DNA from: Hahella ganghwensis DSM 17046
Lineage (GTDB): Bacteria > Pseudomonadota > Gammaproteobacteria > Pseudomonadales > Oleiphilaceae
Length of the DNA stretch: 64,000 nt
NCBI RefSeq assembly: GCF_000376785.1
Contig: NZ_AQXX01000120.1
Location: 1 to 64,000 of the forward strand
Direction: 5' to 3'
Shown: positions 26,819 to 37,284 of the stretch, piece by piece
How positions within the stretch are numbered: the first letter of the stretch is position 1
Layout of the letters: every line of letters begins with the position of its first letter
Translations under genes and position numbers: made by a program
Notes under the pieces: generated by a model
What the model saw: the letters and a program-made list of their open reading frames with translations, nothing else
Told to the model about the DNA's origin: nothing
The model's database searches: none

Positions 26819-26881
26819 GTATGAAGTCTCCTCCCCATGTATACTGATAGTCGAGTGTTCCGATCAGATGGCTCGAGTTCA

Positions 26882-27586
26882 ATGAATACAAATGAAATCG
26901 CCCGAATCGCGGCTTTGGTTGGTGAGCCGGCCCGCACCGCCATGCTGCTGGCATTGATGGATGGTAGAGCCTTCACTGCCAACGAGTTGGCAGTTGCTGG
27001 AAATGTCACCCCGCAAACGGCCAGCCGCCACCTATCCCAGATGATTGACGCAGGTCTGTTGAAAGTAGCTAAGCAGGGGCGGCACCGATACCATCGTCTG
27101 GCGTCGGAGAAAGTCGCCACCATGCTTGAGGGCATTATGCAGGTCGCATCACTAAACCGGCCCCCACCGGCTCCCATTCTGACAGGCCCCAAAGACGAGA
27201 ATATGCGCCGGGCCAGAATGTGCTACGACCACGTGGCGGGACGATTGGGTGTCGCAATTGCGGAGCACCTTACTGCCCAGAAGGCCATTATTCTGGAAGA
27301 TGGCAGTGGTCAGATAACCGAGCAATTAAGCAACACTCTTGCTCCAATTAATATGCAGCTGGACCAAACCTGCATGAACAGCAGGATGGTACTTTGTCGC
27401 CCCTGCCTCGACTGGAGCGAACGGAGATACCATGTTGCCGGGCAACTGGGCAGACAGATCTGCCAACACTTGCTCAAGGAGGGGTATCTCAGAAGAAAAG
27501 CCAGTCTGCGGACGTTATGGGTGACAGGCAAAGGCGCCACTGGACTACGCCAGTGGCTTGGAGATGAACTGTGGCAACATATATGA
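26882..27586 (+). CDS. ArsR-family transcriptional regulator
   Basis: 234 residues from ATG 26882; an upstream start at 26837 is possible but would run into the promoter region. The winged helix is at about 10-85 (ELAVAGNVTPQTASRHLSQMIDAGLL, then KQGRHRYHRL). The C-terminal half has CMNSRMVLCRPCLDWSERRYH and ends in a stretch resembling LRTLWVTGKGATGLRQWLG. This long form of ArsR protein is known beside ABM-type genes in several proteobacteria; the effector is unknown. The cysteines C-x2-C could sense metals or oxidants, but this is inference. Confidence 0.88.
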   Translation: MNTNEIARIAALVGEPARTAMLLALMDGRAFTANELAVAGNVTPQTASRHLSQMIDAGLLKVAKQGRHRYHRLASEKVATMLEGIMQVASLNRPPPAPILTGPKDENMRRARMCYDHVAGRLGVAIAEHLTAQKAIILEDGSGQITEQLSNTLAPINMQLDQTCMNSRMVLCRPCLDWSERRYHVAGQLGRQICQHLLKEGYLRRKASLRTLWVTGKGATGLRQWLGDELWQHI

Positions 27587-27632
27587 TAGGAGAATGATAG
27601 GAGCCAGAGTTTCCCTAGATCTGCGACATAGG

Positions 27633-28856
27633 CTAGTTGTTTGGGCTTACTGTCACAGACAGTTCACGACAGGCTCTTTGAGCCCGTAACAAGGCCTCCC
27701 GAGGGTTCTCTCCTATCGCAATAGCCAATGCCAACCTGTCATAGCTAGAATATAGACCCTGAGTAACATCCCCCGGGGCTTTAAGGGCCTTTACCTCCAC
27801 AACCCCGTCAATATCTCTCGCTTGCTCAAGACCTTCAATGGCGATGATTTCTCCGGTAGCTTCAGGTAATAAATACCACACTGCTGCAGCACGTCGAGCG
27901 GAAAGTAATCTCCCCGCAGAGTGATTAAGATCAAGGGGGTGACCGAGTATGTCCCGTACAATATTTTCAGTCAGGTCCGCTGATGTGGAAAGTTTTACCA
28001 GGTCAAGTATGCGATCCCCTCCACCTCTCAAGTGTGTTTCCACCATCTGAATCGAAGATGAATTGACAAAAACCTCGGTATGACCAATACCTCTGTATAT
28101 TCCCAGGCAAGATAGTGCCTTATCGACATACGCAACCACATCTGCCTGCCTTTCCTTAGGTAAATCCAGAGGTGGGGTCACATGTCCGCATTCAACAAAG
28201 CCCTGCTTGAACTTCTGGGTCACCGAGCCGGCCAGGACTTCACCCTCTCCGGAGAAGGTTTCTACGCTGTACTCGTCACCACTTAACTTTGCCTCAACCA
28301 TATACCTGTCAGAATAATGCAATTGTTGCAGATCAGTCCTATGGTTAATTGCCAGAACCCCCTCACTGGCCCTACCATCAACAGGCTTGTATATTCCTTC
28401 GCCCTTGAGCTCCAAAAACTTTTCCACTACATCACGACTCAAGGCCATCACGTAATCAGTATTATCAAGCCCTTGCTTTCTAAGACAGTCCCGCATACGC
28501 CATTTTTCTACAGAACATTTAGCGGTTTCTTCACTAAACCAGGGCAACCGAAGTCTTGCTGCGATCTGAGCACCAACAATGACAGCATAATCATGGAGAC
28601 AGGCAATTCCCGTAAATGGATGACGCTGATTGACTGCCATGAGTGTTTCACAAACCTGATCTATTTGATCAGGAGACTCCAGGTTGACAACCTTCTGATA
28701 TAACTCCCGCCGGATCGGCCACGGATGACCGTGAACGGGAACAAGCGTGAGACTGGCGCCTCTCTCGTGCAGTAAGCTATGTACTGAGGGGATACCACCA
28801 ATGACCAGAATATGGGGAATATCGCTTTGGTCGGTTGCGCTTGAGGTTAGCTCCAT
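27633..28856 (-). CDS. ATP-grasp ligase C (amino acid ligase type), last gene of the operon
   Basis: 407 residues in an ATP-grasp layout. An N-terminal Rossmann-like domain opens with ILVIGGIPS. The ATP lid has GIYKPVDGRASEGVL, and VEAKLSGDEYSVETFS covers the nucleotide base. The metal region GHTEVFVNSSSIQMVETHLRGGGDRI has Glu and His in place of the usual Glu and Asn. The ETH-RGGGD form resembles L-amino acid ligases and carnosine synthase relatives rather than housekeeping carboxylases. It likely joins a carboxylate to an amine through an acyl phosphate. The gene starts 18 bp after the MFS gene. It differs clearly from the two other ATP-grasp proteins of the operon. Confidence 0.88.
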   Translation of the reverse strand: MELTSSATDQSDIPHILVIGGIPSVHSLLHERGASLTLVPVHGHPWPIRRELYQKVVNLESPDQIDQVCETLMAVNQRHPFTGIACLHDYAVIVGAQIAARLRLPWFSEETAKCSVEKWRMRDCLRKQGLDNTDYVMALSRDVVEKFLELKGEGIYKPVDGRASEGVLAINHRTDLQQLHYSDRYMVEAKLSGDEYSVETFSGEGEVLAGSVTQKFKQGFVECGHVTPPLDLPKERQADVVAYVDKALSCLGIYRGIGHTEVFVNSSSIQMVETHLRGGGDRILDLVKLSTSADLTENIVRDILGHPLDLNHSAGRLLSARRAAAVWYLLPEATGEIIAIEGLEQARDIDGVVEVKALKAPGDVTQGLYSSYDRLALAIAIGENPREALLRAQRACRELSVTVSPNN

Positions 28857-28874
28857 CGTTATTCCACTTGTATG

Positions 28875-30125
28875 TTATTCCGTCTTATACACAGTATTAA
28901 TCGGTTTCCGCTGTTTCATTGGCAGGATTGCCAACATCATGAACACTCCCAGAAACAGAGCCATCAGCACAGAAGCGCCTTTTATTGAGCTTTCCACCTG
29001 GATAGTCAAAACCGGAAGCAGCACACCCACTGATACAGAGATTGCTATCGACCGGATAACTCCTGCCCTGCCATGAATTTCCCTGGGCAGAGAAGCCTGC
29101 AGTAGTGTCAGTACAGATGTGGACGAAATGGCCACTCCCATACCAAGACAGCAGGCGATGGCAATGAATCCCCAGGGTGATATCAATATAAAGCTCGCAG
29201 CCCAGGCCAGAGCCTGCAGAAGCAATCCTAATTGTCGTGCAGATGACGGTGCTAAAGCATTCAGTTTCCTGGTTAGAATCCATCCTCCCAAAATAGCACC
29301 GATGGCAAATGCCATTTCCAGTCCGCCCATCCAACTATACACCCCGTTAAAAAGAATTTCGCACCAGGGAGCAAGGAGTAGATTAAACAACGATATTGTC
29401 AGGAAGTCCGCGCCGACAGTAACCAGAGTATAAAAGCTGGACTTATCTCCCCAGGCAACTTTTATCGGGGAAACCCAGCTACGGGGTGTGTCTTTTAGCA
29501 CCTTTAACAGGCTGCCACCTTTCTTGCGCTGCACGGCGTAGGGAAGTGGTGAGATAAGAAAGATTACCGCTGCGAGAGCGTAAAGTACGCCGGATATTAA
29601 AAGTGGTACTTCAATTGTTCCCAACCCTATCAGGACTCCGGCAGCCGCCGCCCCTATCAGTTGACCAGACTGAATACATACGGTCATTCTGGCATTGAAT
29701 GCCTGCAACTGGCCCTCGCTGACAACTTCGGGGGGCATTCGAAACAGTGCAGGTCGGAAAAAGGCCCTGGACGAACTAAACATCATCCCGATCATTAGTG
29801 AAGCGCCTGTCAGAGATATGCCTTCCGGACCCCCCGTGTATACACAGGCTACTAACAGAAAGCATGCCAGGGCGAACACAAGATTCGCCTTCCCTGCGAT
29901 CAGACTTGTTTTGAATGAATCAACAATATTGCCCGCCAGCATTCCCAGAAGTACAAACAATACCTGTTCAATCACCATAATCGTCGCAAAGTGTTGAACG
30001 GCACCTGAGGCATCAAACAACAGTTTACCCAGGCTCAGGGTATATATTCCCAGGGCCAGATTATTACTGAATACACCTGCCAGGATAGCAATGGCGTTAT
30101 TTGAAGGCTGGGAGAATTTGAGCAT
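28875..30125 (-). CDS. MFS transporter, likely exporter of the operon's product
   Basis: 416 residues with 12 hydrophobic helices and a central loop of basic residues (VQRKKGGSLLKVLKDTPRSW). Features such as AGNIVDSFKTSLIAGKANLVFA in the loop 2-3 region and EIHGRAGVIRSIAISV place it in the MFS_3/enterobactin-exporter-like group. Within a biosynthetic operon such proteins usually export the product and confer self-protection. Its first 29 bases overlap the end of the deacetylase gene, so translation is coupled. The substrate is unknown. Confidence 0.9.
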   Translation of the reverse strand: MLKFSQPSNNAIAILAGVFSNNLALGIYTLSLGKLLFDASGAVQHFATIMVIEQVLFVLLGMLAGNIVDSFKTSLIAGKANLVFALACFLLVACVYTGGPEGISLTGASLMIGMMFSSSRAFFRPALFRMPPEVVSEGQLQAFNARMTVCIQSGQLIGAAAAGVLIGLGTIEVPLLISGVLYALAAVIFLISPLPYAVQRKKGGSLLKVLKDTPRSWVSPIKVAWGDKSSFYTLVTVGADFLTISLFNLLLAPWCEILFNGVYSWMGGLEMAFAIGAILGGWILTRKLNALAPSSARQLGLLLQALAWAASFILISPWGFIAIACCLGMGVAISSTSVLTLLQASLPREIHGRAGVIRSIAISVSVGVLLPVLTIQVESSIKGASVLMALFLGVFMMLAILPMKQRKPINTVYKTE

Positions 30126-30978
30126 GAGTCTCTACAAGTGTTGTCGAGGGTAGGCGCAACTCATCGAGGTACTCTGCTAAATCCCCTCCTTTTTGAATCC
30201 AAAGCTCTGGATCGTTGGCGAGCCAGGACAGAAACTCCGCAAAGTCACGGCATCGCTCCATCCTTCCGACGATCCAGGGATGGACAGTGATGCTGAAGTA
30301 GCCACCATAGTGTTTCACCCCGTTTACAGCTCTTCGCCACCCTTCAAAAACAGCCTGGGAATCCTTGGGGGCGTGCGGATCATTTCCATCGCCCAAATAG
30401 ATGAAATGCGGAGCATCATCCAGGTACCAGGAAACCGGGAGTTCAAGCAGTTCTTCGACTTTGTAGGGCTGCTCATATCCCATCAAAGAGCTGTCATATC
30501 GAATACCAAGCTGCCTCAGCTGACCGGGCAGATAGCTGCTCATGTTCCACGAGGGCGAGCGATAGCCTACTGGTTTCTGACCTGACAGCTCGGTCAAGGT
30601 CTGCAGAGACCGGTTCAATATTTCCTGACTCTCCGCAGACGAAATCTCGCTCAAGGTTTCATGGATATAACCATGAACACCGATTTCATGTCCTTCACTC
30701 ACGATATCCCGGATCATCTGCGGATTCAGTTCAGCTACGGCAGAAGGCACAAAGAACACTGCCTGCAGATTGGTTTCCTGCAGCATGGATAGGATTCTGG
30801 GCACTCCCTGTCGAATGCCAAACAGACGCTGCTCCACTTCCGCCGGAGAGAGAGAAGATGAATGACGCTCCCGCCAAAGCATCGGCGTCACAGTATCCAC
30901 ATCAACCGAAATCATACCTGCCGCCCGATATCCTTGCGGCCAGGCTACAGCGGTACCGGTATTATATTGCTGGTACAT
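30097..30978 (-). CDS. cytoplasmic NodB-fold deacetylase (polysaccharide deacetylase family)
   Basis: 293 residues without a signal peptide. The metal site is MISVDVDTVTP (Asp) with GVHGYIHETL (His-x3-His); GYRSPSWNMSS and the late His of SITVHPWIVGRM follow. It is closest to the PgdA-like cytoplasmic branch also containing PuuE, so it probably cleaves an amide or acetyl C-N bond on a small molecule rather than on a polysaccharide. In this operon it could remove an acyl protecting group or edit an intermediate. It overlaps the GNAT gene by one base and the MFS gene by 29. Confidence 0.87.
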   Translation of the reverse strand: MYQQYNTGTAVAWPQGYRAAGMISVDVDTVTPMLWRERHSSSLSPAEVEQRLFGIRQGVPRILSMLQETNLQAVFFVPSAVAELNPQMIRDIVSEGHEIGVHGYIHETLSEISSAESQEILNRSLQTLTELSGQKPVGYRSPSWNMSSYLPGQLRQLGIRYDSSLMGYEQPYKVEELLELPVSWYLDDAPHFIYLGDGNDPHAPKDSQAVFEGWRRAVNGVKHYGGYFSITVHPWIVGRMERCRDFAEFLSWLANDPELWIQKGGDLAEYLDELRLPSTTLVETHAQILPAFK

Positions 30979-31691
30979 TACCCCTCCTTCCTGGCATAGG
31001 TAATGTAACTGTCGACGCCAGTATTGATGATTCTCTTGCCAATATAATTCTCTGCCAATAATCGCCTGTGAAGATTTACGTTATGGCATGGCACAATCAC
31101 CTGCTCAGGAATGCCAAAGGAAACAGACTTTTGACGGCACTCAAAAGCAATCAGAAATCTGGTCCGGCCATCATCATAGGTCTCAATTCCCTGAATACTT
31201 CCTCCATTACTGAGAAGATTGGACAGACTTGCCTGATTGTATGGGGATACCGTCACCCCCAGACGCTCTGTCCCACACCTTTTTGCATAATCTAAACGTA
31301 GCTTTATCGCTGCGTGCTGAATTCCCCTTCGACGGTATTCAGGAACCACCAGAGTCGCAGCCAATGCTCCCCACTTTTCAGTCCCATCGCGATTTATCAG
31401 ATGTTCATATTCGTATTCGGTATCCGCAGCACACAGATCAAGGGTTAGTGCGGTATATGCGACCAGACAGCCATTGTCATAAAATCCAAAAGAGACACCA
31501 GCGCTGCCCAGGTGATCTTCGACAAACTTACGCTCGTCATCCTCCATGACATAGTTGTCATGGTGTTCCAGTTCCTTGAGCGCCTGATGCCTGAGTGCTA
31601 TTACCGCATTGGCATCAGATAGACCCAACTGACGGGTGATCCAGCGATGATCTGATTGCTTTGAAACTCCGGTTTTCAAGTCCATTGACAT
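30978..31691 (-). CDS. GNAT N-acetyltransferase of the ATP-grasp operon
   Basis: 237 residues. The acetyl-CoA binding motif is LVVPEYRRRGIQHAAIKLRLDYA, and LGVTVSPYNQASLSNLLSNGG gives the following beta bulge. The N-terminal half contains a family-like EDDERKFVEDHLGSAGVSFGFYDNG. It should transfer an acetyl or similar acyl group to an amine. Possible roles are self-protection of the product, capping of an intermediate later removed by the deacetylase, or tailoring. It overlaps the upstream ATP-grasp gene by 16 bases. Confidence 0.87.
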   Translation of the reverse strand: MSMDLKTGVSKQSDHRWITRQLGLSDANAVIALRHQALKELEHHDNYVMEDDERKFVEDHLGSAGVSFGFYDNGCLVAYTALTLDLCAADTEYEYEHLINRDGTEKWGALAATLVVPEYRRRGIQHAAIKLRLDYAKRCGTERLGVTVSPYNQASLSNLLSNGGSIQGIETYDDGRTRFLIAFECRQKSVSFGIPEQVIVPCHNVNLHRRLLAENYIGKRIINTGVDSYITYARKEG

Positions 31692-32926
31692 TGCTCCTCA
31701 AACCATAAGACCAGCTCCTGCAGTCTCTGCTCCAGAATTTCAGGGGACTCTCCCTTCAGTACAAAACGTGCTATCTCGGAGTTGGTATGTGTCATCAGTT
31801 GAAAGTTATCACCAGCCTGCCCTTGAAATTCACACAGGGACACATAAGGAAATTCACATTGCGCAGGCATCGACACCAGCGTTTTAGCTTTCGGTGAAAT
31901 ATGAAGCTGTGCGGCAGGAACGAACTGGCTGTGCTGCATTCCCAAAATTTCCGCCACAGCAGCGTCATTTCCGCATTCGGCAGCCAGAGTCAATGACTTG
32001 ATATTCACACCGTAAGACGTTTCCACTTCCTCAATAATTGAGCCTCCTCCCAGCCTGGCTGCGGCCTCACTGAAAACCAGTTCACCATCAGAATTCTTAA
32101 ACACTTCAACGTGGAAACTGCCATTCTCAGCAAAAGGCAGTACTTCCAGTAGCAATCTTTCCGTTAATCCTGTCAGGTCTTTCGCCAAAGGCGCTTTCGG
32201 ATCCAGCATGACTGACCCGAGGCACCCGCCTCCCAGATAGTTCAAATGGGTACCCCAGTATTTGGCGGCTGCACTGAAACACACCTTCCCGTTATGGACG
32301 ACGCCATCAATTCGGTACAGGTCTCCTTCAATGTATTCTTCAACTAACAAAGGAACCTGTGCACCAAGATCGTTCCACCTGTATTCCGTCAGAAAGTCTT
32401 CCAGCTCTCTTCTGTTCTGTACGACATTCACTCCCGATGAGCCCCGTCCCATCGGAGGCTTTATCACAACCGGGTATCCCAGCTCCTCGGTAGCGTTCAG
32501 GAGGGTTAAGGGATCATAGACCAAGGAGTGTTTGGCAACCTTAATGCCTTCTTTGGCTGCCTGCTTTTTCATCATGGCCTTGTCGCGGAAAAATAAAGCC
32601 TGATCTGCCTTAAGACCAACGAGCCCCAGGTGGTCACGAAGTCTTGCGCTACGCATGACGTCGACTTCAGACATGGCAACAATGTGGCTTGCTCTCTCTT
32701 TCTGAGCCAGTTGCAGCAGGCGCAAGGGGATGGTCGAAGAGCTATTATAGTTGCCGAACTCATACAATGACTCAGAGTAACGGCCGATAGCCGCCTTGAG
32801 TTTCTCTCGGGTGCTATCATCCATGTCGCTGGTCACGATACAAACCGGCTTGTCGAGCGCTCGATCAAGTTCGCTCTCACTCCACCGAATCAATACTTTA
32901 GGGGGGGCCAATAAAAACGTTGTCAT
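31676..32926 (-). CDS. ATP-grasp ligase B (carboxylate-amine ligase)
   Basis: 416 residues. The central ATP-grasp domain carries YPVVIKPPMGRGSSGVNVV for the phosphate loop, LLVEEYIEGDLYRIDGVV for the base, and FHVEVFKNSDGELVFSEAAARLGGGSI for the metal ions. The closest resemblance is to BacD/carnosine synthase-like amino acid ligases (PF13535-type). It should activate a carboxylate as acyl phosphate and couple it to an amine. Start ATG 32926 overlaps the stop of ATP-grasp A by four bases, so the two are translationally coupled. Confidence 0.88.
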   Translation of the reverse strand: MTTFLLAPPKVLIRWSESELDRALDKPVCIVTSDMDDSTREKLKAAIGRYSESLYEFGNYNSSSTIPLRLLQLAQKERASHIVAMSEVDVMRSARLRDHLGLVGLKADQALFFRDKAMMKKQAAKEGIKVAKHSLVYDPLTLLNATEELGYPVVIKPPMGRGSSGVNVVQNRRELEDFLTEYRWNDLGAQVPLLVEEYIEGDLYRIDGVVHNGKVCFSAAAKYWGTHLNYLGGGCLGSVMLDPKAPLAKDLTGLTERLLLEVLPFAENGSFHVEVFKNSDGELVFSEAAARLGGGSIIEEVETSYGVNIKSLTLAAECGNDAAVAEILGMQHSQFVPAAQLHISPKAKTLVSMPAQCEFPYVSLCEFQGQAGDNFQLMTHTNSEIARFVLKGESPEILEQRLQELVLWFEEQCQWT

Positions 32927-34170
32927 TCCGCGTAGTCCTCAACTCGTGTTGCTGCATTTTCTGTTTCAACCAGGAGCTTTCTGATAGCCTGTTCACACCT
33001 CTTAAAGGCCTCATTCGAACTATTTCCCAGACACATACAGTAACCAATACGATCCGCCGCATGCCGGGTGGTTCCAAAGCTTTTTCCCTGAATATCCTTT
33101 ATCTCAAACCGGTATACCCCTTCAGAATGACGAACCAATTCATGGCCGTCGCATCGGAGCACAAGTCCCTCTGGTGCAGGCAGGTGAACAACACTCGCTG
33201 CAGGCGATTCAGCCTTGATTACCGGAGATGGCAAATGACACAGATGAGCGACGGTTTCGTGAGCCACGTTACGCCCTGTCGTCAGCCAAACCAATTCCCA
33301 GATTTGCCCTCCTCCGAAGCGAGTTTGGGTTTCAATAATATTTACCCGCTCACCGTCGACTTTCACTTCCGTATGGCAAGGACCATTCTGCTGCCCCATC
33401 AGGTTCAGCATATCAATCACTGTCACATGTATTTGATTTTTGACAGAGACAGGTATCTCCGCAGGGGTCGTATGTCCCAACTCAATAAAGTGAGGCGCTC
33501 CGGTCGTGTTTTTCCTGACAATAGCGAGGATTTCATGACAACCATTCTTACTGATGCTCTCAACGCTATACTCGTCACCCTCTACGTATTCCTCGAGCAG
33601 GACGTTGTTGTAATTTTCCATGTTGGCCCAGTAGGGAACCTCAGTCGCGTACTCCCAAGCCACCTTCGCATTGCGAACATCGTCGATTTTAAATACGCCG
33701 GCACTCCCCCCACCAGCAACGGGCTTCACGATAACAGGCTTGCCCAGGTTCTGCAGAAACCTCTCGATGTCTTCAGGCCCTGAGGCCAGGCTCCATCGTA
33801 CCTGGGGTAATTCCGAGCGTTCCAGGACGCGCCTGAGTTTATCTTTATGTCGCGCCACCTCTACCGGTTGACATGGATTGCAGCGTACACCAAGTAATTC
33901 CCCAACTTGAGAGGTCACCAGGAGCCAGGTCGGATAAAAAGTAACGACTGATGTTATCGGCATTTGGGCATGAACACCTTTCAATATATCAATCGCTTTA
34001 TGTTCCTCCCCCATCTCCAGCAAAATAACCTGATCAGCCAGCACTTGCTGCTGTTCTGTTAACATCCCCGGGTATTGCACCAGCGTGGCAACAACCCCTT
34101 GTTCCTTGCAGAACTCCAGTACCCCATCCTTTCCTCCAAATACGACTATATGAGGGTTCGCTGACATCAT
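32923..34170 (-). CDS. ATP-grasp ligase A (carboxylate-amine ligase)
   Basis: 415 residues. It begins with HIVVFGGKDGVLEFCKEQG (pre-ATP-grasp Rossmann fold). KPVIVKPVAGGGSAGVFKI, LLEEYVEGDEYSVESI and the metal segment CHTEVKVDGERVNIIETQTRFGGGQI follow. In the last motif Gln-Thr replaces the usual Asn-Pro. The beginning of the protein resembles PurK/ArgE-like grasp folds, but the substrates must differ because no purine genes are near. It starts one base after the FAD gene ends. With ligases B and C it could make two or three successive amide bonds. Confidence 0.88.
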   Translation of the reverse strand: MMSANPHIVVFGGKDGVLEFCKEQGVVATLVQYPGMLTEQQQVLADQVILLEMGEEHKAIDILKGVHAQMPITSVVTFYPTWLLVTSQVGELLGVRCNPCQPVEVARHKDKLRRVLERSELPQVRWSLASGPEDIERFLQNLGKPVIVKPVAGGGSAGVFKIDDVRNAKVAWEYATEVPYWANMENYNNVLLEEYVEGDEYSVESISKNGCHEILAIVRKNTTGAPHFIELGHTTPAEIPVSVKNQIHVTVIDMLNLMGQQNGPCHTEVKVDGERVNIIETQTRFGGGQIWELVWLTTGRNVAHETVAHLCHLPSPVIKAESPAASVVHLPAPEGLVLRCDGHELVRHSEGVYRFEIKDIQGKSFGTTRHAADRIGYCMCLGNSSNEAFKRCEQAIRKLLVETENAATRVEDYAE

Positions 34171-35706
34171 TCAGATACCTCCCACTTCTTTCTGGGTGAC
34201 ACAGGATTCTCCTGTGGAAAACGAAATTGTGTACAGATTCGCAATGTGCCGGGCAACGCGCCTGGCCTGGAGTCCGATCACATCAACAGCCGATGTAATC
34301 AGAAAGGTTCCCTGGGTTGCAGCCCCGATCACCTGCAGTGTCTTGTTCGTCTGCCCATCTCGGTCAACTACACAGCAGCTTTCATGTGCGACGAGACCAC
34401 GATTGCGCCAGTCCAGCCCCATCTGGCCTTGTTCCAGCAGGTTGATGATCAGGTCGTTGGGATTAACACTAAGGTCATATTCAAAACCACTGGCATTGAT
34501 TACCTGATCCAGGTTCTGTGATTCACCGTTATTAAATGATGCGGAAAATCCCCCTTCCCTAGATAGAATATTCTGAAGTCCTCCTCTGACAGACAGCCTT
34601 CCTTCCTCAGAAACCTGAAGGAGCTTTTTAGCCGTCATAAATGGTACGGGAATACGCTGCCGAAGCCATTCATGACTGAGAATCTCGCAAGTCCGCTGCT
34701 TCTCCTGCTCATCCATCAAAGCATACGCATAGTTGAGAGCATTATTCGTTCGCGAAATAACACTTTGCCAACACCTTCCCGGTGCTGATGCACCGCTCAG
34801 AGATTGTCTGAATTCATCGAGAGCGGACAGTTCGGTAGGCTTGGTAATATCTGAAAGCTTAACACCAAATGGCTCTAGCTCCTGATTAAACAAATCAATG
34901 ATATTTTCAGCCGTAATCCTTCCCCGCTCCGAGTAGATAGAAGACAGGGCTTCTTCCGTAAAACAGCGAGGAGGTGCTTTATCAGACTCTCCTCGCACAG
35001 ACGGTAAGCGACCACGTCGGGACAGCATGCTAATCCGAATATCCGGGTACTGATGGACAAGCGCCAGAACGGCGTCAATTGCTGTCAGACTTGAACCAAT
35101 AACACCTATATGGGAACAGGATGGTTTTATCCACTGCATTAGAGAAGATAATGGAAATGCGCTGTCTCGATACCCGGAGCATTCATTCAGGTGATAAGGA
35201 TCGATGCGCCTTTGAGGCCCAATAGCCACGACCACATGGTCCATTTCCATATGATCACCAGTATCTGTCTGCAGTATATATCTAGACAACGAATGTTTGA
35301 TGCTTGTTACCGAACAGGGATAGGCTCTGAACAGAATGTTTTTTTCATGCAGAGTAAGCGTCACATTACTCAGCATCTCATATAGAAAGCTCCCAAACAG
35401 CCAGCGGGGAGCAAATGAGAAGTCATTAAACCGGCCTTCAGACTGCGACTTCAACCATTGATGAAAGGAGGAGCTTTCAGTCAAAAGTTCATCCATCGCT
35501 ACAGCCGGACGGTTCAGCTTGGCAAAATCCAGATCCTTGCCATATGGTGCGCCGGGGCTGACAACGGACATTGGATCGAACAGATGAAGCTCAACCTTAG
35601 CACTGTCCATCACCTGATCCGCAAGCTGCGATAAGGTTGCGATCCCTCCAGCACCAGCACCAGCACCAGCACCAGCACCAATGATGGCAATTCTTATAGT
35701 TTTCAT
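34171..35706 (-). CDS. FAD/NAD(P)-binding enzyme (NAD_binding_9 type), first gene of the ATP-grasp operon
   Basis: 511 residues. The N-terminal dinucleotide motif reads IIG(AG)n then GIATL, extended by a repeat (see 35648-35680). DPMSVVSPGAPYGKD, FAKLNRPAVAM and SSFHQWLKSQ follow, as in the PF13454 family. A second nucleotide site is GVIGSSLTAIDAVLAL. The C-terminal region holds VINASGFEYDL, GLDWRNRGLVA and VIGAATQGTFLITSAVDVIG, typical of flavoproteins related to N-hydroxylating monooxygenases. It probably oxidises an amine or amino acid precursor. Ribosome site AGGGGA lies five bases before ATG 35706. Its repeat expansion may impair flavin or NADPH binding. Confidence 0.85.
   Translation of the reverse strand: MKTIRIAIIGAGAGAGAGAGGIATLSQLADQVMDSAKVELHLFDPMSVVSPGAPYGKDLDFAKLNRPAVAMDELLTESSSFHQWLKSQSEGRFNDFSFAPRWLFGSFLYEMLSNVTLTLHEKNILFRAYPCSVTSIKHSLSRYILQTDTGDHMEMDHVVVAIGPQRRIDPYHLNECSGYRDSAFPLSSLMQWIKPSCSHIGVIGSSLTAIDAVLALVHQYPDIRISMLSRRGRLPSVRGESDKAPPRCFTEEALSSIYSERGRITAENIIDLFNQELEPFGVKLSDITKPTELSALDEFRQSLSGASAPGRCWQSVISRTNNALNYAYALMDEQEKQRTCEILSHEWLRQRIPVPFMTAKKLLQVSEEGRLSVRGGLQNILSREGGFSASFNNGESQNLDQVINASGFEYDLSVNPNDLIINLLEQGQMGLDWRNRGLVAHESCCVVDRDGQTNKTLQVIGAATQGTFLITSAVDVIGLQARRVARHIANLYTISFSTGESCVTQKEVGGI
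35648..35680. repeat. hexanucleotide tandem repeat (CCAGCA)5.5 in the FAD gene
   Basis: Thirty-three bases consist of five and a half perfect CCAGCA units. On the coding strand these give Gly-Ala repeats at residues 10-20 of the FAD enzyme, exactly in the GxGxxG dinucleotide loop. Canonical relatives have GAGxxG here, so about six extra residues (three units) are inserted. Because the unit is six bases, changes in copy number never shift the frame but change loop length. Confidence 0.93.
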
Positions 35707-36386
35707 TTGTTCCCCTATATATTTCCCTATGTCTGAGACAGGTCTCAGGGCTCCTGATACGACACTCTGGCAGAAATAACCACTTAACTAACCGGCCATG
35801 CAGATGAAAGAGATCCTTCTGGGAGTATTTGATTGTGTTCAATAGAGCACTAATGGCACTTGGGCAGCTGAATTCGTCATGGGCAACCTCCCTACTGGGG
35901 GGGCACCATCAGAGCATCAGCTAAATACGATGAACAGAAATCCCCCATACAGGTACTGAACCTGCCAGGTAACCATCTGTTCGCTTATTGGAAAGTATTA
36001 AATGAAATGGATATATCCATATCTGCCTGATCCTGTGCAAAGTTCCTACACTAATCCATGCAGAAAGTAGCCGTTACCTGCCGGTATAGGACACACCACC
36101 TGCATGGAACTAAAAGCGCCTTGAGACTCATCCAATTGATGTCTTCAGAACGTGCGAAATACTAACAAATCATCACCGTAATGGAAAGTACCTATATACT
36201 TACCGTTTCATAACAAATGGCGAAACCTGAACCGGTAACAAGCACAAAATAGCAGCATATAGAGGGAAAACAGATCTGATCACATCAGACAGAAAACGTT
36301 GTCTCAGAATAGAAACGACAACGTCGTCTGACTACCTCTGGTGGCCACCGCGTTTTCTCTAGGGAATTAAGGTCAGATATAGTCCA
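35707..36386. other. 680-bp upstream region of the ATP-grasp operon
   Basis: No gene is supported. The region must carry the promoter of the seven-gene operon and the end of the small membrane gene at 36387. A short frame at 35853-35924 (MALGQLNSSW onward, 23 residues) lacks a ribosome site. A perfect palindrome lies at 36007-36020. I see no riboswitch-like structure. Confidence 0.4.
36007..36020. promoter_or_regulatory. 14-bp perfect palindrome, about 300 bp upstream of the FAD gene
   Basis: ATGGATATATCCAT is its own reverse complement. It lies in the operon's upstream region. A dimeric regulator could bind it, but the distance from the start codon is long and no regulator gene is next to it. 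Confidence 0.35.
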
Positions 36387-36614
36387 TTAACCGACCAGTT
36401 GTGTCACTCCAGTTCCGGTAAAGAACAAACCAACCAATCCAATGACCATATACAATAAAGGTCGACGCATCTTTTCTTCATATACCGCGAAAATGAGCTG
36501 TGATATCGGGGGGGCAAGAAAGTTCAGAACCATGCAGATAACCGATACCTGAATCCCTCTTGCGACAGACCAGATCCAAGCACCAACAGCCAAGAACCAA
36601 AATAGTATTTCCAC
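36387..36614 (-). CDS. small two-helix membrane protein
   Basis: 75 residues from GTG 36614, with AAGGA eight bases upstream. Two hydrophobic stretches (about 5-40 and 52-72) are linked by the charged segment YEEKMRRPLLYM. It begins MEILFWFLAVGAWIWSV. No family function is known to me. It lies downstream of the PaiB gene on the same strand (34 bp) and may be part of its transcript. Confidence 0.6.
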   Translation of the reverse strand: MEILFWFLAVGAWIWSVARGIQVSVICMVLNFLAPPISQLIFAVYEEKMRRPLLYMVIGLVGLFFTGTGVTQLVG

Positions 36615-36648
36615 AGTTTTTCCTTCCAGTGATTAAAAAACAAGTTTT

Positions 36649-37284
36649 CTAACGAATGCCAGACCCGACCAGATCTGCCATAACAGCATCCTCCTGATAC
36701 CCGGTGCGATTCAGTCCACTGACGACACTTTCTTTGTTAGCCAGGGGCTGATTCTGACTAACCTTCCACTTACCTTCCAGTCGGGTAATTTCCATTTCGA
36801 TACCAACGATGGCGGAGATCAGTCTGTCTGTATAATCCTGAGGGGCATCTGACACTTGCCATGGTTCTGAAAACACGGCCTCCTGACGTAAGGTCAACTT
36901 TTCCAACTGAGCCCGAATCCAATCGGGCTCATCGATCACCCGTATAACACCATGAGCATGCACCACCGCATAGTTCCAGGTCGGTACGACCTTCCCGGTT
37001 TCCTGTTTGGATGCATACCAGGAGGGAGAAATATAGGCCTCAGGCCCCTGAAAGACCATCAGTGCGGGCTTCCCGTTTTTCAGATCTTTAAGCATCGGAT
37101 TGGATCGAGCCACATGCCCCTGTAACACGCCGTACTGACTGGCGGATTTCTCCAGGTGCATGGGAATATGGTTGGCATTCAGTTCCGCATCCGACTGAGT
37201 AATCACTGTTGCCAGAGGATGCGCGCAGATAAGCTGGTGCAGGACTTCGAGTCTCGTTTCTTCAAAATGTTTGGGGGTGTACAT
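36649..37284 (-). CDS. PaiB-type FMN-binding split barrel protein
   Basis: 211 residues with the PaiB pattern: MYTPKHFEETR, HPLATVITQSDAELNANHIPM and LQGHVARSNP. FQGPEAYISPSWYASKQETGKVVPTWNYAVVHAHG and KLTLRQE follow. PaiB-like proteins are annotated as transcriptional regulators of protease and sporulation genes in Bacillus, but the fold suggests an FMN or haem-binding activity. It could be an oxidoreductase. The last 15 residues (GYQEDAVMADLVGSGIR) are variable in the family. Confidence 0.9.
   Translation of the reverse strand: MYTPKHFEETRLEVLHQLICAHPLATVITQSDAELNANHIPMHLEKSASQYGVLQGHVARSNPMLKDLKNGKPALMVFQGPEAYISPSWYASKQETGKVVPTWNYAVVHAHGVIRVIDEPDWIRAQLEKLTLRQEAVFSEPWQVSDAPQDYTDRLISAIVGIEMEITRLEGKWKVSQNQPLANKESVVSGLNRTGYQEDAVMADLVGSGIR

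Follow-up and report, generated by a model that had tools for sequence, protein, structure and literature searches.

A seven-gene operon of Hahella ganghwensis with three distinct ATP-grasp ligases, a candidate system for a peptide-like product

What would a bacterium make with three different ATP-grasp ligases encoded almost side by side? The question is raised by a minus-strand block at positions 27633-35706 of a 64,000-nucleotide stretch of Hahella ganghwensis DSM 17046 (contig NZ_AQXX01000120.1, positions 1 to 64,000; hereafter the window), from a genome of 6.56 Mb (G000). Seven open reading frames (ORFs) follow one another here in the order flavin adenine dinucleotide (FAD) enzyme, ATP-grasp ligase A (GraspA), ligase B (GraspB), GNAT-fold acetyltransferase, NodB-fold hydrolase, MFS transporter and ligase C (GraspC), and the junction spacings computed by script are 0, -4, -16, -1, -29 and +18 bases. 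An initial annotation of this DNA, which had proposed an operon for a peptide-like molecule, gave identical coordinates and spacings. On balance we lean toward an acquired operon, independent of nonribosomal peptide synthetases (NRPS), that would make and export a short peptide, probably of three or four residues, of which one is N-oxygenated (N-hydroxy, oxime or nitro).

None of the seven ORFs is interrupted, and they are closely packed. Eight ORFs of at least 200 aa are found in the block, namely the seven operon genes and one antisense ORF (32920-33783, plus strand, 287 aa) that is probably spurious, and 100 single-base shuffles of the block had 0.01 such ORFs on average and never more than one. 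The gene classes assigned by the initial annotation are borne out by a Pfam match above cutoff for each protein: PF13454 in the FAD enzyme (77.9 bits, cutoff 21.8; PF13738 falls below its own cutoff), ATP-grasp_4 in the three ligases (A 83.5, B 41.7 and C 44.5 bits, cutoff 27), Acetyltransf_1 in the GNAT protein (34.4 bits, cutoff 20.7; a general match only), Polysacc_deac_1 in the NodB-fold protein (68.2 bits, cutoff 23.1) and MFS_1 in the transporter (56.8 bits, cutoff 33.4). No NRPS or polyketide synthase (PKS) domain was found in the 30 window proteins scanned (10 at E 1e-3 and 20 at E 1e-8), in agreement with the annotation, and no closed ORF of the window is longer than that of an 867-aa EAL/GGDEF signalling protein.

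The nearest solved relatives of the ligases all join amino acids. The L-amino-acid ligase BL00235 (3vot) is closest to both GraspA and GraspC, and a GraspB profile is closest to the L-amino-acid ligase 4wd3 (E=3e-32), which we take to be RizA. A lysine, two glutamates and an arginine with a following glycine are invariant in the ligase alignments (K149, E268, E280 and R284 in alignment A3; K156, E274, E287 and R291 in alignment A5), and these residues are of catalytic type. The NCBIfam equivalog model for BacD gave 45.7, 44.1 and 25.4 bits for A, B and C, all below its cutoff of 850, and the model for DdaF gave 29.9, 30.3 and 26.2 bits, all below 840. A C-terminal LAL_C2 domain is present in GraspA (44.9 bits) and GraspC (68.8 bits; cutoff 29.4) and absent in GraspB. 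Pairwise identity over the aligned parts is 27% for A and C, 28% for A and B and 21% for B and C. In a ligase tree of 31 rows, which has several long branches joining one another and 13 of its 28 inner branches drawn open, GraspB falls within a 13-row clade (100/100) separate from the 18 rows that hold GraspA and GraspC. GraspC groups with ligases of Vibrio tubiashii and Streptomyces albidoflavus (100/98), and the placement of GraspA is not settled. Because of this deep split, the three ligases are old and distinct enzymes, not recent duplicates; tandem duplication of one ligase is ruled out by the split and the 21-28% identities.

Two parts of the operon recur elsewhere. Within its clade, GraspB belongs to a five-row group (100/99) with the ligases of Photobacterium sp. 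GJ3 and three roseobacters, and all five lie near a relative of the FAD enzyme. A GraspB match at E<=1e-15 occurs in 76 plasmid records, in 11 of which it covers 100% of the query; a FAD match lies no more than 1.4 kb away in 10 of these 11, and the remaining record (Leisingera NJS201) is not among the best 30 of 87 FAD matches listed. The Phaeobacter and Leisingera loci that were opened also hold a GraspA relative, an AbrB-type protein, an aldolase, an acetaldehyde dehydrogenase and an aminotransferase, and the Photobacterium sp. GJ3 plasmid has GraspB, MFS and FAD genes in a row. The second recurring pair is GraspC and the transporter: the MFS protein matches two of 72,556 plasmid records at E 1e-5, both from Vibrio tubiashii, and each match adjoins a GraspC relative. 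One plasmid of Pantoea stewartii combines a FAD enzyme, a more distant B-type ligase, an MFS gene and an arylamine N-acetyltransferase of another fold. Its ligase lies outside the GraspB subclade, so that FAD enzymes and ligases may have been brought together on more than one occasion.

Linkage to a FAD gene is not a general trait of B-type ligases. The GraspB profile matched 7 of 398 genomes at 1e-30 (phylum), 5 of 369 at 1e-40 (class), 4 of 390 at 1e-40 (order) and 2 of 248 at 1e-60 (family of G170), in samples that overlap in part and of which the phylum, class and order counts include the window's own genome. The phylum, class and order searches gave 13 further places in other genomes. None of the ten of these that were fetched with flanks (L147-L156; some contigs are short) has a FAD match, and an A-type ligase lies close by in three of them. 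Scanning genome contigs with two short peptide patterns from the GraspB alignment returned 50 loci, and BLAST of all seven proteins against these found no second copy of the operon, in a scan of limited recall that missed the Phaeobacter, Leisingera and Photobacterium loci. The same seven-gene set was absent from every locus examined, and no description of it was found in the open-licence literature searched (titles and abstract openings). On co-occurrence in other genomes, on which the initial annotation had staked its proposal, the outcome is thus divided: the FAD-GraspB and GraspC-MFS pairs recur, and the full set was not found.

Three ATP-grasp genes in one cluster are not unique to this operon, since they also occur in Streptomyces canus (L052) and S. 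zaomyceticus (L126). Three Streptomyces loci (L052, L053 and L054) have three ATP-grasp matches each, and L052 also encodes a radical SAM enzyme, an MFS protein, a tryptophan-dioxygenase-like protein and an O-methyltransferase. A single run of genes on the S. zaomyceticus plasmid (L126:2306-9083) comprises a GNAT gene, two ATP-grasp genes, a serine acetyltransferase, a cysteine synthase and a NikS-like ligase. In Paraburkholderia mimosarum (L055:8763-11257), two tandem ATP-grasp genes have a nitrogenase-type gene on one side and, on the other, a NodB-like gene that has a glycosyltransferase next to it.

The suggestion of an N-oxygenated residue comes from the first gene. A profile of six FAD homologs encoded near a ligase (A4) had its best solved match in 8cp2/8cp5 (E=5e-8), followed by flavin-containing monooxygenases, and a ten-homolog profile (A6) matched 8cp2 at E=2.5e-14, then flavin-containing monooxygenases and, lower in the list, SidA-type ornithine N-monooxygenases. 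The alignment to 8cp2 covers N- and C-terminal parts only, and the window protein as a single query found only mycothione reductase (E=0.064), with 8cp2 not listed at E 0.1. The protein of 8cp2 is the L-aspartate N-hydroxylase of Streptomyces sp. V2, which produces nitrosuccinate, and is, like FzmM and CreE, an N-hydroxylating class-B flavoenzyme (PMC10404684). Our best guess from these profiles is that the flavoenzyme N-oxygenates some amine, which leaves the oxidised amine of the initial annotation plausible. A scan of viral contigs found no FAD relative, and an AlphaFold2 model of the FAD protein alone (mean pLDDT, the model's own confidence score, 33.8) was not used.

Comparison with the congener G004 bears on how the operon came to be here. 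The BLASTN alignment of the window with G004 ends at 27562 and restarts at 36677, and G004 has 130 bp where the window has ∼9.1 kb. The G004 flanks are kept in order, with a cardiolipin synthase gene, an ArsR-like regulator and an FMN_bind_2 gene. Besides the operon and its upstream region, the ∼9.1-kb segment holds a membrane ORF of 75 aa; the ArsR-like gene (26837-27586) has a counterpart in G004 and therefore lies outside the absent segment. The operon was gained or lost as one unit and, being absent in G004, the segment is dispensable. The FAD protein was found in one of 58 genomes searched, that of the window itself. The remaining 57 include six congeners, and in these GraspC has only distant matches (at most 28% identity over the matched part) or none. 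Because the distribution is scattered, gain in G000 is favored over loss from G004, and the operon was apparently acquired horizontally. The GC content of the operon genes (47-52%) is close to that of the window (48.5%), and composition is therefore no marker of foreign origin. A primary pathway with conserved synteny, the alternative that the initial annotation had set against its own proposal, is disfavored by the empty site between conserved flanks. The nearest solved relatives, the conserved catalytic-type residues and this empty site all agree with the annotation's idea of an operon for a peptide-like molecule, with L-amino-acid-ligase-type ATP-grasps and an MFS protein.

Some smaller features accompany the segment. 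The 75-aa membrane-protein-like ORF (36387-36614, minus strand) has distant relatives (42-45% identity) in three of the six congeners, and a tandem ATGATAGGAGA lies at 27583-27603, at the end of the ArsR-like gene and near the junction with the segment. Four of the six congeners have other distant ATP-grasp matches, and the window's genome has another distant ATP-grasp gene (L157, G000:C103:39819-41021) with 24% identity to GraspC. Features are collected in Table 1.

Table 1. Features of the operon and its surroundings in the window
Feature	Position	Strand	Basis
Segment without counterpart in congener G004, holds all seven genes	27563..36676		BLASTN
ATP-grasp ligase C (GraspC), 407 aa, ATP-grasp_4 and LAL_C2	27633..28856	-	Pfam, relatives, tree
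MFS transporter, 416 aa, probable exporter	28875..30125	-	Pfam, plasmid matches
NodB-fold (CE4-like) hydrolase, 293 aa	30097..30978	-	Pfam; motifs SVDVD, HGYIH
GNAT-fold acetyltransferase, 237 aa	30978..31691	-	Pfam
ATP-grasp ligase B (GraspB), 416 aa, ATP-grasp_4 without LAL_C2	31676..32926	-	Pfam, profile, tree
ATP-grasp ligase A (GraspA), 415 aa, ATP-grasp_4 and LAL_C2	32923..34170	-	Pfam, relatives, alignment
FAD/NAD(P)-binding flavoenzyme, gene 1, 511 aa, PF13454; candidate class-B flavin monooxygenase (N-oxygenase)	34171..35706	-	Pfam and profile matches
Hexanucleotide repeat (GGTGCT)x5.5 within FAD gene	35648..35680	-	Sequence; alignment to nine relatives
Operon upstream region, presumed promoter region	35707..36386	-	Inverted repeat, scans

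The product and the order of steps that we infer are as follows. The PF13454 flavoenzyme would oxidize the nitrogen of an amino acid, and GraspB, its recurring partner, would join the oxidized amino acid to a second one by way of an acyl phosphate. GraspA and GraspC would lengthen this product by one amide bond apiece. Acetylation of a free amine or hydroxylamine by the GNAT protein would serve self-protection or tailoring, the NodB-fold enzyme would take off an acyl group late, and the MFS protein would export the product. No maker of special building blocks (pyridoxal phosphate enzyme, aldolase or phosphoenolpyruvate mutase) is apparent among the seven genes, and the other residues are therefore probably ordinary amino acids. 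Two ATP-grasp ligases make a tripeptide in mangotoxin biosynthesis, as outlined in PMC13185094; by analogy, three ligases could make a tetrapeptide, or one of them could act on a non-peptide partner. In the cystargolide and belactosin pathways, enzyme functions are described as differing from in silico predictions (PMC11427300), which is a warning against reading a step order from sequence.

Set beside known systems, the operon is a variant of ATP-grasp, NRPS-independent peptide clusters that was unmatched as a whole in the searches made. The mangotoxin mbo cluster is likewise NRPS-independent, with the ATP-grasps MboC and MboD building a tripeptide that an oxidase modifies, but it has two ligases rather than three and uses the HDO enzyme MboA and the arginine deiminase MboE in place of a flavoenzyme (PMC13185094). 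Phosphonoalamides also depend on two distinct ATP-grasps, PnaB and PnaC, that make a tripeptide, whereas the phosphonate pathway outlined there (PepM, PnaA; PMC11867202) has no counterpart among the seven genes. The pantaphos hvr locus of Pantoea ananatis brings together ATP-grasps, an N-acetyltransferase, a flavin-dependent enzyme and an MFS exporter; however, its product is phosphonate-based, its flavoenzyme is of another kind (an NtaA/ScmK homolog) and no NodB-fold gene is seen in the available part of the description (PMC7858074). The fzm clusters also contain ATP-grasp members, as summarized in PMC12154649, but the similarity of our flavoenzyme to FzmM, CreE and 8cp2 is very low. Also comparable are the Phaeobacter and Leisingera plasmid clusters and the Photobacterium sp. 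GJ3 locus described above, in which relatives of GraspB and of the FAD enzyme lie near each other, with a GraspA relative added in the roseobacters. They differ in the genes added in the roseobacters, in the three-gene row of Photobacterium, and in that no relative of the window's GNAT or NodB-fold protein was found in either.

Several observations weigh against an N-oxygenated peptide as the product. The sequence reveals neither the substrate nor the number or order of bonds. The match of the FAD enzyme to an N-hydroxylase is weak, and its identity to ligase-linked relatives is only 23-31%. In L-aspartate N-hydroxylase, Arg13 is described as contacting aspartate as part of an arginine cluster (PMC10404684), and no arginine is found at the counterpart position in the window FAD loop; Arg266, Arg276, Arg409, Arg412, Asn413 and Arg416 of 8cp2 lie outside the aligned parts, and Arg577 just beyond them. 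Given the absence of an Arg13 counterpart and of any recognized nitrosuccinate lyase among the seven genes, aspartate is an unlikely substrate. The FAD family is wide, with matches in 56 of 398 genomes at E 1e-3; all five other FAD genome loci opened (L034-L038) have nothing that matches the remaining six operon proteins, and four of four FAD plasmid gene tables, themselves incomplete (Mesorhizobium, Thioclava, Streptomyces NBC_00335 and Rhodococcus LW-XY12), list no ATP-grasp gene. FAD-GraspB loci come from few lineages (Phaeobacter, Leisingera and Photobacterium), and BLAST found no relative of the GNAT or NodB-fold protein in five related FAD-ligase loci (L027, L028, L039, L040 and L043). 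Finally, an expanded loop, considered below, might weaken the flavoenzyme.

The missing GNAT and NodB-fold relatives indicate that both genes are additions to a shared core and that deacetylation lies outside it. The acetylate-then-deacetylate scheme of the initial annotation is conjectural, as are its two or three sequential amide bonds, and acetylation could serve protection, tailoring or self-resistance. At E 1e-5 the GNAT protein has no match in the plasmid records. For the NodB-fold protein the nearest solved relative is 3rxz, followed by the peptidoglycan deacetylase 3qbu (3qbu/4ly4) and the allantoinase PuuE. Two metal-ligand-type motifs are retained, SVDVD beginning at residue 24 and HGYIH at residue 102, and both align with 3rxz. 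A serious, if minority, possibility is that the two proteins provide self-resistance or recycling around a toxic peptide made by the FAD enzyme and the ligases alone, which is compatible with most of the reading that we prefer. Related loci without the two genes are consistent with such a role, as is the Pantoea plasmid, where a FAD enzyme, a B-type ligase and an MFS gene are paired with an acetyltransferase of a different fold; at the pantaphos locus, the acetyltransferase HvrG has been suggested as possible self-resistance (PMC7858074). However, both genes are packed inside the operon (-16, -1 and -29), though packing does not separate roles.

A hydroxamate metallophore is unlikely. Here the FAD enzyme would N-hydroxylate an amine, the GNAT protein would acylate it to a hydroxamate, the ATP-grasps would join the pieces and the MFS protein would export the product, following aerobactin logic with ATP-grasps in place of NRPS-independent siderophore (NIS) synthetases. 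The combination of a monooxygenase-like FAD enzyme, a GNAT, ligases and an MFS protein does resemble an aerobactin-type gene set, and the FAD profiles reach ornithine N-monooxygenases, if lower in the list. Nevertheless, the flavoenzyme's Pfam matches are to PF13454 and, below cutoff, PF13738; none is to the lysine/ornithine N-monooxygenase family, neither that family nor a NIS synthetase Pfam family occurs among the seven genes, and these include no receptor or uptake gene. Five of the 16 ORFs listed near the Photobacterium FAD-GraspB pair were scanned and include no acetyltransferase. The best Fur-like site upstream of the operon agrees at 11 of 19 positions with the consensus, and 196 of 200 shuffles did equally well or better; in the absence of a Fur-like site, an iron-regulated siderophore is rejected. 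A consensus scan of the upstream region found no sigma-70 site. Just upstream of the operon, at 35733-35748, lies the inverted repeat CTGAGAC-AG-GTCTCAG, with perfect 7-bp arms and a 2-bp center, which is a candidate operator.

We consider it quite improbable that the operon modifies the cell envelope or a cofactor by placing an amino-acid tag on a glycan or cofactor, with no secondary metabolite exported: peptidoglycan deacetylase and PuuE are among the NodB-fold relatives, and ATP-grasp and GNAT enzymes are known in envelope chemistry, but the segment is dispensable, relatives of the ligases sit in other clusters with MFS genes, and no glycosyltransferase is found among the seven genes. The perfect hexanucleotide repeat of the FAD gene is in frame and codes for the Gly-Ala run GAGAGAGAGAGG of the FAD-binding Rossmann loop, which is six residues longer in the window protein than in nine aligned relatives. 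Hexanucleotide repeats can vary in length by slippage with the frame kept, and this one could be an assembly effect, an attenuated allele or a modifier that varies within the population. That these six extra residues have inactivated the first enzyme, leaving a decaying cluster, is equally hard to credit, since all seven ORFs remain open and tightly packed and the repeat length may vary between cells.

The peptide reading can be carried further, in a form that we regard as rather doubtful. The PF13454 flavoenzyme and the GraspB subclade might together constitute a new mobile cassette of two enzymes with which marine Proteobacteria make N-oxygenated peptides. The operon would then be its most elaborate form, in which two further ligases and an acetyl-on/acetyl-off pair yield an antimetabolite of an undescribed class, an N-oxygenated tetrapeptide, with the first enzyme tuned by the repeat in its FAD loop.

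Clusters without signatures of NRPS, PKS or ribosomally synthesized and post-translationally modified peptides are easily overlooked in genome mining. With seven genes, three non-redundant peptide ligases and a possible N-oxygenase, the operon is compact enough to be expressed whole. It would offer a test case for whether the number of ligases predicts peptide length, and for whether a wider family of N-oxygenated peptides can be recognized by the FAD-GraspB pair.

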